Source: a virus | IMG/VR virus record: IMGVR_UViG_3300048508_000564 | Location: 1 to 20,551 of that record | Length of the DNA: 20,551 bases | Direction: 5' to 3' (one strand) | Shown: positions 4,601 to 11,734 of the stretch, piece by piece | Layout: each line of letters begins with the position of its first letter | How positions within the stretch are numbered: position 1 is the first letter of the stretch | The notes under the pieces: model-generated | What the model saw: only the letters and a program-made list of their open reading frames with translations | Databases searched by the model: none | Told to the model about the DNA's origin: nothing | Position numbers and translations under genes: made by a program

Positions 4601-7600
4601 AACAAAGTCTCCAGGAGTCAGCGTGTAAGCAGGGGCATTACGGATAACATACTGTTTGCCGAGATCAGATTCGTAATCTTTAAAGTCGTCACGACCACCA
4701 TTGGGTTTCTCAGCGAGAATACCAGTTGCAGAACCACTAGCAAAAATAGTAGTGGTACTATCATTATACTTCAGAGTAGGCAGTAGAGGGAAATCACTAC
4801 GAAGGACTAAACGAGTAGTACCACCCTCAATATAAACTTTATGAACGACAGGCAAGTTGCCACTAATCTCACTGCTATCAGAGAAACCAGACCAAGCAAC
4901 TGCAAGTCCTAGCGTGAAAGTACCTGTAACACTGGAGAGTTTAACCTCAGTTAAAATTGTACCTGATGCTAAAGCTGTACCAGCAGCAATATTAGTATTA
5001 ATTGTGTGATCGAAGACCGTCAATTCAATGCGATCGGTACCACTAATATTCTTTAGTCTGGCAGATTCGATGGTAAATTTGATACCACAATCAGACACCA
5101 AAGACTTGCTGTTGCCAGTCAGATAGGGATCGTAATTATAATCTGCTTCAATTGCGAGGTTGTCTCCACTAGCAGGATCAACAGTCGGAGAATCACCAAA
5201 GAAGACGGGAATATCAGTAGTTGCATCAACAGCTTCCAGAACAATCTTCTGAGGTCTTAGTCTTCTATTCTCGTCAGTTCTGACCTTAAGGACATAACCG
5301 AGCAAGGGTTCTCTAACGTTGTCAATTTCCTTTGGTACAACGTATCTGAGTCTATAGATACGGTCATCTTCCCTACGGCGATCGTTGACACGCTTGATAT
5401 AGGTGTTGGAAGTTGTGATGACTTCTTCATTAACATACTCCGCAAGAGTGGAAACACGTTGATAGATTTGGTTTGGTTGCTGAGCTGTGTTTAGTACATT
5501 CAGATACCACAGACCATTACGACCAGGAGATGCAGTCATCTCAGGGTCATATTTTAGAGGATGCCTAGTATTACAGGAGAAGATAAAGACTTCATCTTGA
5601 TTGGTAACACCAACAGTACCACTAGATGTAAATGAATATGGAACACCACCACCTTGAATAGCAAGTGCTGATGACAATGCAACCTTTAACTTATTAGTAT
5701 TACCAGCAGTATTATCGTAAATGGCATAATACATCTTGTTCGCATCAATACCACCAGGCAGTTGCGAACCAGGCTTAGCACGGAAGAAAACAGGAGTTGC
5801 TGCTTTAGTAGCAAAACCTTTATCAAAAACGTGAGAAGATTCTAAAGTAAATTCATTAGTAGCAGGGTCAGCATTGACGACCTTGTACTTAAATGGAGTT
5901 GGGTTGACATCAAAGATGTACTGCTGCATCGAGATCTGAACGCCAGCGTTCAATGCCTCGGGGATATTAATTGCGTTACCCGCAGCTGCATCATCCTCAG
6001 ATGCTGCCAGAAGGAATGTGTTGAGGTCTTCTGTAGGGAAAGTCTGATCGGGCGGTACAGGCGCTGTATGGCGACCAGGAGCAATTACATAATAAACAGT
6101 GTTTGCTTCCAGACCTTTAGGTAGTCTGACTAGTTCGTTGCCAATATTAGGATTGACCCGTGTTGGAACTAAACGAACAGGTGTGCCTGTATACAGACCG
6201 TGTGCTTCAGGGCAGGAGAAGATCGTAGCACGATATACAATAGTCTCACCCAGAGCATTCTGCACTGACTGAGTAGCAGTTGCCAGACTGCTCACCGTAA
6301 AGGTGTCGAAACCAGATGGAGTAAGTTGTGCTGACCTTTCCTGAGGACCAGATTCACCAGCAGAAATATCAGGATCTAGCTTAGCATAAATTCTATCTTC
6401 ACGCTTAGAACCAACTTTATAATCCTGCAGAATGTAAGTTGGTGTGCTATCAGGATCAGCAATTTCCTCAGGTTCGCCTGAAAGGTAAACACGAGTAGAA
6501 CCAGCTGGTTCCTTAGAACCAAGAATATCAATACCGTAGTATGGAGGTTGGGTAGTATCGTCTAGATCAATTGTTTGTGGAGGAACAATATCAGTAACGA
6601 AACCGTGCTTGTCTTGGAAGAAAGCAAATCCCTTAAATCCGATAGCATCCAGAGCGGTGTTACCGAAGTTAGAGTTAGAGTTGGTGATTGAAATGTCAGC
6701 ACCAGACTCAATCAGGAAGTGATCTGCAAAACCCACCGCGAAGATGGACACAGCCTGAATGAACGCATCATTCGACAATCTAACGTGAGCGTTTCTCCAC
6801 TCATTCTTAAAGTATGCTCTACCATCTGTGTGATAAGGAGTGGTAGCAAACGAACCAGTTGCCAGTTCTTCAGGGTCAGTAACAGCAACACCGTTCCAAG
6901 CAGATTCAAACTGCGCAGTTTCTTCGTTGAACTTAGTAAACGCACGATCGTCTTTCTGCAACGAAACGCCCGTGTACTGAGCACACACCATCGACTTGAA
7001 TCCAGTAACCTTGGATCCATCAGCGTGCATACCTGCCAGACCCCAAGTAGAACGGATCGACAGGTTAAAGATATAAGGAGATGCAGAGTCAACAGTATCA
7101 ATCTCTGCCTGAACAACAGCGTTCTCATTCAGTCTGTTAGGAGGAAGAGAAGCTGTCGTATATGTCTGACCAGAGATCAATGTCGGAATTGACTGGTTGA
7201 CACGATAGTAGAAAAGAGTGTTATCTGCGGGATCCAGACGTGTAATCAGGAATGAACCGTGCAGATCATTAGTTAGTCCAGTATCATCGATGGTAACAAA
7301 TTGAGCTACGAAATAACCGTGAGGTGCTTTCGTTTTAACTCTAATTTCAGTTGCATTACCACCCAATGCCTGTGGAGTGATCGACTCAATAACCTTTTTG
7401 TCAGAGAGTGGACCCACAATACGGTTTTCAAGATCCGTCTCTTGAATAGCACCGTCAACGTTAATATCGACGACCATATTTTCATATGCGTCACCAATTT
7501 TGTCGTAGTAGAGTTGCAGATCTTCAGCATCTGCAAACTCAAAGTTTGTAATCTTGTGGTGAGAAAAAGTTGGGTCAGCTTTATTTCCAGAAGCATCAAA

Positions 7601-8170: not shown

Positions 8171-8178
8171 TATTTATC
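8171..8178 (-). promoter_or_regulatory. T4-type late promoter for the giant fibre gene
   Basis: The minus strand reads GATAAATAC here, matching the T4 late consensus TATAAATA in seven of eight positions. It overlaps the TGA stop of the glutaredoxin-like gene and ends 37 nt before the ATG of the fibre gene. The same ATAAATAC core occurs only twice more in this window, both times just before an operon start. In T4 such sites are read by the gp55 sigma factor with the sliding clamp. Function is inferred from motif and position. Confidence 0.75.
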
Positions 8179-8431
8179 AGACGAACATTCCTTTGTCTGA
8201 CATATATCGAAGTGTAGTCTTCATATCGCCAATGTGCGTCATACCAATTGCACATTGAGGATAAGTTGCTTCATTTCCAAATTCATTTCTGAATTGATAA
8301 TCTTCAAAGTCTTTTCCTAGCTCATATCTATGAAAGTCTTCAACACCTTCAATTTTCTTCAAAAGTTGTGCCATACGATCACACTCTTGACTACTGTTAG
8401 AGTATATAACTGCGGTTTTAGTTAGTACCAT
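8177..8431 (-). CDS. Glutaredoxin-like small protein with SxxC active site (84 aa)
   Basis: The fold pattern is that of a glutaredoxin: strand TAVIYSN (6-12), an active-site loop, a helix DRMAQLLKKIEG, then YPQC with the cis-Pro (57-60) and HIGDMKTTLRYM (66-77), which corresponds to the family's HIGG plus last helix. The usual CPYC is replaced by SQEC at 14-17, so the nucleophilic first Cys is Ser while the second Cys (C17) remains. A standard dithiol cycle is therefore not possible with this motif alone; C60 next to the cis-Pro is an unusual extra thiol. I chose ATG at 8431, which overlaps the end of the thioredoxin gene by 14 nt and has GGGG a few bases upstream. The frame runs further up to a TTG at 8479, but that would overlap by 62 nt. 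Redox, scaffold or inhibitor roles are all possible. Confidence 0.65.
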   Translation of the reverse strand: MVLTKTAVIYSNSSQECDRMAQLLKKIEGVEDFHRYELGKDFEDYQFRNEFGNEATYPQCAIGMTHIGDMKTTLRYMSDKGMFV

Positions 8432-8714
8432 ATTGACCCCAAAGTTTACGAACAGATTGAGTAATTGGCAAACCACCAATTCGTTTTTCCAGCAATAGTC
8501 CTGAGGGAGAAATAACTAGAAAAACAGGAGTAGCAGTTACGCCATATTTTTTAGCAAGAGCAAGATTTTCTTCTGGAATAGGAGTATCACTGAAGTCTTC
8601 CAACTCTATTTGTTCAATCAGACTCTCTCTTTCATCGTGAAGAGCTTTGATGTATTTTTTAACCAAACCACAAGGACCACAGGAGTCCTTGGTAAACAGC
8701 AAAAATCGGTTCAT
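8418..8714 (-). CDS. Thioredoxin (98 aa, CGPC active site)
   Basis: The protein has a classical thioredoxin active site, CGPC at 12-15, directly after the strand RFLLFTKDS, and the conserved cis-proline in TATPVFLV (P63). The strand-turn FLVISPSGLLLEKRIGG (65-81) is also typical. It would reduce disulfides of phage or host proteins, with electrons from host thioredoxin reductase or ferredoxin-thioredoxin reductase. At 98 residues it is slightly shorter than host thioredoxins (about 105-110). Its ATG shares a base with the TAA of the 48-residue gene upstream (TAATG), and AAGGAG stands at good distance, so it should be well translated. Its own 3' end overlaps the glutaredoxin-like gene. The two thioredoxin-fold genes are thus translationally linked. 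The target is not shown. Confidence 0.88.
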   Translation of the reverse strand: MNRFLLFTKDSCGPCGLVKKYIKALHDERESLIEQIELEDFSDTPIPEENLALAKKYGVTATPVFLVISPSGLLLEKRIGGLPITQSVRKLWGQYGTN

Positions 8715-10355: not shown

Positions 10356-10427
10356 CTCCTGAGGCAGGATTTGAACCTGCGACCAAACGATTAACAGTCG
10401 TCCGCTCTGCCACTGAGCTACTCAGGA
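10356..10427 (-). tRNA. tRNA-Asn (anticodon GUU)
   Basis: A full cloverleaf can be folded by hand on the minus strand: acceptor stem TCCTGAG with CTCAGGA, discriminator G; D stem GCTC/GAGC with loop AGTGGCA; anticodon stem GACGA/TCGTT (one G-U pair) with loop CTGTTAA, giving anticodon GTT; variable TGGTC; T stem GCAGG/CCTGC with loop TTCAAAT. The length is 72 nt. CCA is not encoded (the next bases are TTTA), so host enzymes would add it. It reads Asn codons AAC and AAU, and the neighbouring fibre and collar proteins are Asn-rich. It lies alone in a late-gene region, 30 nt after the ParB-like gene. Confidence 0.95.
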
Positions 10428-10434
10428 TTGAGAA

Positions 10435-10449
10435 GGGGGCAGTGCCCCC
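10435..10449 (-). terminator. GC-rich stem-loop after the ParB-like gene
   Basis: A perfect six-base-pair inverted repeat GGGGGC/GCCCCC with a 3-nt loop lies 8 nt after the stop of the 391-residue gene and 7 nt before the tRNA 5' end. Downstream on the minus strand comes TTCTCAA, not a solid T run, so it is a weak intrinsic terminator at best. It could instead protect the mRNA 3' end or mark processing that releases the tRNA. Confidence 0.5.
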
Positions 10450-10457
10450 ATATTATA

Positions 10458-11633
10458 TCAGAAGAACCTTTGTTCTGCAATGTTTTGCAGTTGAGGGCGA
10501 ATCAGTGAATTAGCAGACGAAATGAACTTAACCCAACAGCTGTTGTCAGACCCGTTGAACGGAATTGCCGTCTGTTGATTCCCAGGAAATTCAAGACCTG
10601 TAGAATCTACATATGCATTATAAAGACAGACGAAACGTGCAACAGCAGGTTCCCACTTCTTATAATCAGTAGTTGCTCCAGTAATATCCTCTTGAGTAAC
10701 GTTACGTGCTTTCTTACCGTAAATAGGACGAGACTTATCACCCCAGTCACAGAAATAGTAACGTAGGCAACCTGCAAAAGAGTCGCAGCTGTTCAATTCA
10801 TCAACTTTGTTGATGTACTTAGAGAAATACTTTAGGAACATTGCACCAGCAAGAGTACAACTACCACCAATTTCTTTAGAACAATCGTTCTCAGTAAACG
10901 CCTTTAAATAGCGTTCCGTTTGTCCTTGAGCGTCCTTTACCGCATTAGCGATATAGGTGTGACGAGGAGCGTGGAACGCAGCGTCAGGAAGTGTTCCAGC
11001 GATACCGATGTTAAACTTGGCGCAGAACTCATATAGAGCAACTGCTTTCGGGTCGCGAGCATAAAATGCGGACTTAAATCGGTGATCACCAGTTTGATTG
11101 GTGCGATAGTTCGCATCAACATTGTGATCATTAGATTCGACGCGAATCATCTCTTCCACAGAGAGATCACGTGAATGGAATTTTAGTGAAATCGCAATAC
11201 GGGCATCGAGATCTTGAGTAACTCCGTAGAGCATAGAAACACGATTGTTTCCTTTAGTTACAGATACAAACTTCTGTCCAGGGCGATAAAACCCAGAAAG
11301 AGTATCAGCTGAACCATAAGAAAACCCGCCACGATTAGCGAGATGGACACGATGATTTCCGTACTTCAATTCGAGAATACGGTTGTAATAAGGCGAACTC
11401 ATAAGATCGCCAATTCGTGCTAATACAATAACAATATCGTTGTCGAAATAATTGTTTCCGCTTTCATAATCGCGGATAACATCCTCCATTAGGGGGAGGT
11501 TTTCAGGACAACGGTCAAGTACAGTGAAATTGGAAAAATAATCCCTATCTGTACCTTTTACCTTTTGGTCGAACACATCAACGATGCGTACCAATTCATC
11601 CATACGGATGATTTCGGACATTGTAATAGACAT
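10458..11633 (-). CDS. ParB/DGQHR-like domain protein of unknown function, 391 aa
   Basis: This is not a structural protein by composition: it has 10 or so Cys, many His/Arg and mixed secondary structure. Residues 122-170 resemble the ParB/sulfiredoxin or DGQHR fold: FVSVTKGNNRVSML, where GNNR stands in place of the family's GxHR box, then a strand ARIAISLKF, then a helix SVEEMIRVESNDHN like the E-A-R-LF-N element of DGQHR proteins. Next comes HRFKSAFYARDPKAVALYEF (184-203), like the F-x-A-x-x-x-GDP-x-A segment in such proteins. A second GNHR occurs at 92-95. The C-terminal half (230-391) is helical with several Cys and no motif I know. ATG at 11633 has TAAGAG about 8 nt upstream; ATG 11621 is an alternative. 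It stands alone between a 101-nt leader and the tRNA. DNA binding, nuclease or nucleotide hydrolysis are possible; assignment is tentative. Confidence 0.6.
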   Translation of the reverse strand: MSITMSEIIRMDELVRIVDVFDQKVKGTDRDYFSNFTVLDRCPENLPLMEDVIRDYESGNNYFDNDIVIVLARIGDLMSSPYYNRILELKYGNHRVHLANRGGFSYGSADTLSGFYRPGQKFVSVTKGNNRVSMLYGVTQDLDARIAISLKFHSRDLSVEEMIRVESNDHNVDANYRTNQTGDHRFKSAFYARDPKAVALYEFCAKFNIGIAGTLPDAAFHAPRHTYIANAVKDAQGQTERYLKAFTENDCSKEIGGSCTLAGAMFLKYFSKYINKVDELNSCDSFAGCLRYYFCDWGDKSRPIYGKKARNVTQEDITGATTDYKKWEPAVARFVCLYNAYVDSTGLEFPGNQQTAIPFNGSDNSCWVKFISSANSLIRPQLQNIAEQRFF

Positions 11634-11734
11634 TTAATTTTACTCTTAGTGACGGATTCCCGTCGTGAATAGGGCTAGACAATCTAGAAGTTGAGAGTCT
11701 AGGAGCAGTTTAGAGTCATACTCGGGACTTTTAA
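11634..11734 (-). promoter_or_regulatory. 101-nt non-coding leader of the ParB-like gene
   Basis: No frame spans this gap. It contains a small hairpin, GACGG-GAAT-CCGTC on the minus strand (11651-11664), 17 nt before the ATG, and an inverted repeat CTAGAC/GTCTAG (11675-11680 and 11697-11702). There is no ATAAATA late promoter, and I find no convincing -35/-10 pair. The gene may be read through from the oxygenase operon, or from a promoter type I cannot recognise. Confidence 0.45.

Follow-up and report, generated by a model that had tools for sequence, protein, structure and literature searches.

The gene at 10458–11633 of the window, the whole stretch of 20,551 bases that was analysed, encodes a 391-residue protein that almost certainly adopts a ParB/sulfiredoxin (Srx) fold, and its family very probably consists of mobile single-gene cassettes that move between unrelated genome sites. 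The protein adds a new and divergent branch to a fold class that was already known. It does not belong to the tail, and the place of its gene amid tail genes is a site of insertion. The explanation that we favour, tentatively, is that of a mobile cassette gene for an orphan ParB-type NTP-binding protein that would act in DNA modification or counter-defence; taken as a whole, it falls just short of an even chance. ParB-fold proteins have recently been shown to form a wide class of CTP, ATP and GTP switches, most of which have no assigned role. In this case, a branch of the fold confined to phages can be traced as it jumps among defined sites and pairs with DNA methyltransferase and nuclease genes, so that a “hypothetical protein” of abundant marine phages now poses a question that experiments can address: counter-defence or selfish mobility. 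Its interest lies in the mobile behaviour and in the exchangeable association with restriction-modification (R-M) genes.

The window, a virus record, is a fragment of a T4-like cyanophage; its tail genes, including those for a short tail fibre and a baseplate hub/lysozyme, all lie on the minus strand. The open reading frame (ORF) lies exactly at the stated positions, on that same strand, and is a real gene: in 200 shuffled versions of the window, no stop-free run exceeded 202 codons, compared with the 391 residues of the ORF, and tens of viral loci encode a conserved form of the protein. It is assigned to phrog_15918 (PHROG match, E 8.6e-64), a family annotated as function unknown. On the upstream side lie a 54-aa ORF, a 2OG-Fe(II) oxygenase gene and the baseplate genes, and on the downstream side a hairpin, a tRNA-Asn and the genes of two small proteins, phrog_1461 and phrog_507, which agrees with the placement between baseplate genes and a tRNA that had been described. 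That the gene stands alone in a tail gene region holds for this genome and its nearest kin, and not for the family as a whole. The Cys/His-rich composition that had been read from the sequence was not confirmed, as there are 9 Cys and 7 His in 391 residues and, across 36 aligned relatives, none of the Cys and only one of the His, His170, is invariant; a zinc-binding character was rejected for lack of an invariant Cys. Elsewhere in the tail region, a thioredoxin-like protein (phrog_22) is encoded at 8418–8714 and is overlapped by the next ORF (8177–8479).

Table 1. Features of the gene and its surroundings, with positions in the window, and kinds of genome site occupied by the family (L numbers denote viral loci)
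Feature	Position	Strand	Basis or carriers
Orphan gene, predicted ParB/Srx fold, 391 aa	10458..11633	-	ORF with ATG start; phrog_15918 match; relatives; structure model
Predicted ParB-N/sulfiredoxin-type core, about residues 66–177	11103..11438	-	Secondary structure order of the models; Foldseek of residues 36–216
Predicted helical C-terminal part, about residues 182–387	10473..11090	-	AlphaFold2 model
YNR, residues 83–85, Box I / C motif position	11379..11387	-	Invariant in alignment; hhalign onto YQR of phage ParB-like proteins
GNNR, residues 128–131, Box II / P motif GxxR	11241..11252	-	G128 and R131 invariant; aligned with DGQHR
ESNDHNVD, residues 166–173, ExxxHxxD at Box III position	11115..11138	-	E166, H170 and D173 invariant; helix 159–177
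Leader, ~100 nt, between 54-aa ORF and start codon	11634..11734	-	Sequence; aligned with relatives
Leader hairpin GACGG-GAAT-CCGTC	11651..11664	-	GATGG-GTTAT-CCATC in L024
3' stem-loop GGGGGC-ACT-GCCCCC, between stop codon and tRNA	10435..10449	-	Without T run on coding strand
tRNA-Asn (GTT), downstream and recurrent insertion neighbour	10356..10427	-	ARAGORN; Rfam; also L024–L026, L029
Site: 2OG/tRNA-Asn			Window, L024–L026
Site: another tRNA cluster			L049; L029 also abuts tRNA-Asn
Site: regA-hsp20, beside DNA polymerase			Syn1, S-RIM44, many contigs
Site: downstream of scaffold gp22 and capsid gp23			L006 and others
Site: downstream of psbA			L053, L013, L055
Site: upstream of cobS			L042
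Site: after a tail gene			L032
Site: beside methyltransferases			L010, L039

The AlphaFold2 model of the whole protein has a mean pLDDT of 89.9, and the model of residues 36–216 alone reaches 87.2. A ParB-N/sulfiredoxin-type core is followed by a helical C-terminal part, whose lengths and folds resemble those of the ACG-2014j and S-PRM1 proteins. When the whole model was compared with the PDB by Foldseek, the six top matches were all ParB-N, with weak E values of 0.05–1.4. The 14 top matches of residues 36–216 were all ParB-N or sulfiredoxin, among them Noc (7ol9; E 2.3e-3, prob 1.00), the pNOB8 ParB-N (prob 0.97–0.99) and human sulfiredoxin, including its ADP- and ATP:Mg-bound forms; the PDB matches of both models fall short of E 0.001. 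The viral library returned proteins named ParB, sulfiredoxin, Spo0J, occlusion and sulfur modification protein (prob 1.00), and hhalign against four phage ParB-like proteins gave E 4.9e-5 at a probability of 68%, with KGNNR aligned to DGQHR. A chain of sequence matches also connects the window protein to an annotated ParB-like phage protein, and the family member of Synechococcus phage DSL-LC02 gives a Pfam ParB_N match with E 7e-4, which does not reach the curated cut-off. PDB sequence searches and direct Pfam, NCBIfam and PADLOC searches with the window protein itself yielded nothing useful, and it is named by no library. The predicted ParB/sulfiredoxin fold, which the original prediction had proposed, is taken here as established for practical purposes.

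The motifs that had been pointed out are all present, GNNR at residues 128–131 and the E-rich helix with N-D-H-N in ESNDHNVD (166–173), after which comes the HRFKSAFYARDPKAV stretch. Other invariant residues among the 36 aligned relatives include G103, Q180 and S188, and Box II varies across the family between GNNR and GNHR (KGNNR/KGNHR). With Noc and chromosomal ParB, the window protein has in common the N-domain fold and, by position, Box I, Box II and the Glu at Box III, but its GxxR is not GERR, and no ParB family or HTH profile matches it. Profile searches found neither an HTH nor a C-terminal dimer domain in it, and no parA neighbour is annotated in the relatives' regions examined. DndB and DGQHR proteins belong to the same fold class and are likewise linked to DNA modification; however, the motif here is KGNNR/KGNHR, no dnd genes were seen, and no DndB/DGQHR profile in Pfam, NCBIfam or PADLOC matches the window protein, so that strict membership of this group had to be given up. 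DUF6551 (PF20188) proteins are phage-borne too, with a ParB-N domain, a helical part behind it and a GxxR motif, but Box II differs, and neither the window protein nor the other phrog_15918 members scanned match PF20188; a cousin protein from S-RIM2 reaches E 2.7e-4 (21 bits, below the curated cut-off of 26.8). Binding of CTP or ATP is known for phage ParB fusions of the DUF6551 type and is lost on an R-to-A change in GxxR, while 17 of 28 purified ParB-fold proteins did not bind NTP (PMC12704722). NTP binding by the window protein is predicted and, on balance, probable.

Sulfiredoxin is among the top fold matches, and SerK is an ADP-dependent kinase with a ParB/sulfiredoxin-type fold (PMC5120207); both would suit a small-molecule enzyme, kinase or reductase, of the sulfiredoxin/SerK branch. 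Yet the Box II loop (GNNR/GNHR) has no sulfiredoxin catalytic Cys, and neither the extra helical part of 200 residues nor the methyltransferase neighbours described below suggest metabolism, which leaves this alternative very improbable.

The family was met in cyanomyoviruses only. Its closest named record, Marine virus AG-345-L05, stands at 52% to the window protein, followed by the relatives in Prochlorococcus phage Syn1 and S-RIM44 (35%), S-CREM1 (33%), ACG-2014j (24%) and DSL-LC02 (20%, annotated ParB), and about 45 further loci in IMG/VR carry relatives of the gene. The gene is present in 11 phage records, compared with 460 that hold phrog_507 (~2%), a marker that adjoins the gene in the window and is almost wholly confined to cyanophages in the collection. 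A pattern scan of 84,980 genomes detected no relative in bacteria or archaea, and a plasmid search found none either; a host origin was therefore not found.

The relatives occupy about eight kinds of unrelated genome site (Table 1), so the gene is not always next to this tRNA. On a tree of 43 rows, with site labels assigned by the author of the analysis from clustered neighbours, the site changed at least 13 times, and identical sites are occupied in distant lineages. Copies that are 92–94% alike at different sites have only leader and ORF in common. One such pair, L019 (regA-hsp20) and L006 (gp22-gp23), is 94% identical in DNA from 70 bp before the start exactly to the stop, with nothing else shared, and L049 (tRNA) and L045 (regA) are 93% identical from 53 bp upstream to near the stop. 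By this leader and ORF identity and the 13 site changes, the gene is a moron, a one-gene unit between otherwise unrelated neighbours. The sites that host phrog_15918 genes also receive other accessory genes. Among the cousin phrog_2558 genes, about 54 S-RIM2 sister records have one between phrog_2400 and a Dam methyltransferase gene, and S-RIM2 isolate RW_26_0905 is without it, with both neighbours kept at 99.8% identity; the natural empty site is seen at 1844–1851 of L091 against 3848–5015 of L087. At the window location, an empty site is not demonstrable, since the small genes next to it have also undergone rearrangement in other phages.

These data bear directly on a virion or tail-assembly protein, or one that acts at the packaging stage. 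The window gene does sit between baseplate genes, but its relatives are found at replication, capsid, photosynthesis and tRNA sites, occur in about 2% of cyanomyovirus records and have early-type promoters; such a role is extremely unlikely. The gene is more likely a mobile accessory, of a counter-defence or DNA-handling kind, than a virus tail part.

The mobility itself could be that of a free-standing homing-endonuclease-like selfish gene on the ParB fold, which would cut a conserved phage gene and be copied beside the cut, although we regard this as quite improbable. We know of no ParB-fold protein in a homing-endonuclease role. The gene resembles the free-standing homing endonucleases of T4-like phages (Seg, Mob) in being solitary and patchily present, and it adjoins the highly conserved gp23, regA, psbA and tRNA genes, a type of location typical of T4-like homing genes (PMC2993671). 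Further in line with homing, distant lineages use the same sites, only leader and ORF move between them, and a second leader hairpin in several members includes the ribosome-binding site. Unlike Seg and Mob, however, the window protein has no known nuclease motif, and it matches no homing family; other accessory genes enter the same sites, and copies that are 92–94% alike lie at unrelated sequences, which would need a very loose specificity. In addition, a shuffling route that needs no endonuclease is known in T4-like phages, the PeSLs (Arbiol 2010 and Comeau 2014, as cited in PMC4503421).

The surroundings of the gene in many relatives are consistent with that route. At the regA, gp23 and psbA sites, many copies lie behind a consensus sigma-70 promoter with its -35 element in the loop of a T-tailed stem-loop, a layout that fits the PeSL arrangement of T4-type phages (cited in PMC4503421). 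As in T4-type morons and PeSLs, a single ORF with a promoter-in-stem-loop ahead and a T-tailed hairpin behind is placed between conserved genes; in contrast to them, the shared mobile unit starts at the hairpin downstream of the promoter, and the family re-uses several sites. A host-type early promoter is present in most relatives, and the tail location is only one of many insertion sites, so that the late, pre-packaging action that had been suggested from this location is not supported.

The 5' hairpin that is carried along with the gene follows directly after the promoter stem-loop or, in L029 and L049, abuts the 3' end of a tRNA instead. It is found about 25–70 nt before the start in L006, L007, L019, L029, L030–L038, L044–L050 and L060, and it covaries: over 9 distinct sequences, 7/7 pairs are kept, 6 of them changed on both sides, which was equalled in 0/500 shuffles. 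Its loop is A/C-rich and conserved, and its stems contain G-U pairs. A special stability of the leader hairpin was considered and rejected, as the leaders of other genes fold equally well or better; stability alone is thus uninformative, whereas the covariation and the co-transfer with the gene stand.

In the window copy, the leader and the 3' stem-loop that had been predicted are both present, and the leader contains a hairpin of its own (Table 1). A promoter is not clearly discernible for this copy, and nothing at the window site is recognisable as a sigma-70 promoter like those at other sites. Relatives at the same site keep the pairing of the 3' stem with changed bases. In L026, near 6170–6190, the stem is GGGTCC/GGACCC, compared with GGGGGC/GCCCCC in the window, and the coding strand again shows no run of T. 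The 3' hairpins at tRNA sites lack such a run, while most copies elsewhere have T-tailed terminators; read-through into the tRNA is therefore likely at the tRNA sites.

A role in DNA modification or restriction is considered because related ParB-fold genes adjoin DNA methyltransferase and endonuclease genes. The gene order in ACG-2014j is an R.RsaI-like endonuclease, a DNA methyltransferase and then the phrog_15918-type gene (L010 4566–7137), and in L060 a methyltransferase, behind a 199-aa ORF, directly precedes the gene. Syn19 (L096 108–2575) has a homologous R and M pair, with 40% and 81% identity to that of ACG-2014j, followed by phrog_2615, a family unlike phrog_15918 in sequence; Syn19_155 is linked only by its operon position and by a length equal to that of a weak fold match (prob 0.57). 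The methyltransferases of L039 and S-CAM22 are 85% identical and are followed by ParB-fold genes of phrog_15918 and phrog_2558, respectively, and phrog_2558-type genes also adjoin methyltransferases in S-RIM2, S-IOM18, S-M1 and L090. The S-CAM22, S-PRM1, Syn19 and P-RSM4 proteins were not reached by a profile search of eight cyanophage genomes. No methyltransferase or nuclease gene adjoins the window copy or the majority of its close relatives, and the DNA-modification link therefore comes only from subfamilies and cousin families: as originally proposed, it gains support from their neighbours and finds no counterpart beside the window gene. From the neighbours of the related genes, a DNA-modification or counter-defence role of the window protein is possible, short of probable.

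A ParB-fold gene that comes third after R and M in several phages would also suit a transcription regulator that depends on a nucleotide, in the manner of DndB or KorB, acting over its own gene and over R-M or host genes. The DndB repressor, KorB and VirB are known ParB-fold regulators (PMC12704722), and the conserved leader structure could be a target in the protein's own mRNA. Such regulation is nevertheless unlikely: profile searches found no HTH, the covarying stems, kept loop and G-U pairs point to RNA rather than a DNA operator, and where the gene stands alone, there are no R-M genes for the protein to control.

In the mobile-cassette explanation that we favour, cyanomyoviruses would carry the gene as a moron made of a short hairpin leader, the ORF and a 3' hairpin. 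The N-terminal ParB/sulfiredoxin-fold domain would bind NTP through GxxR, and this binding would switch a DNA-associated activity. Less firmly, this activity may serve DNA modification or restriction, either as counter-defence early in infection or as a partner or regulator of phage R-M genes. Against this explanation stand Box II, which is KGNNR and not GERR or DGQHR, and the altered Box III. A broader reading, a cyanomyovirus radiation of ParB-fold NTP-dependent DNA switches that combine self-promoting mobile genes with an exchangeable third R-M component, is distinctly unlikely; if true, it would make the ParB fold the basis of a novel class of mobile element or R-M accessory.

Finally, in two of the loci, phrog_25220 proteins (L039 1526–2236; L089 2382–3008) precede N6_N4 methyltransferases and, judged by eye from D...QMKGSG, could be uncharacterised restriction endonucleases.
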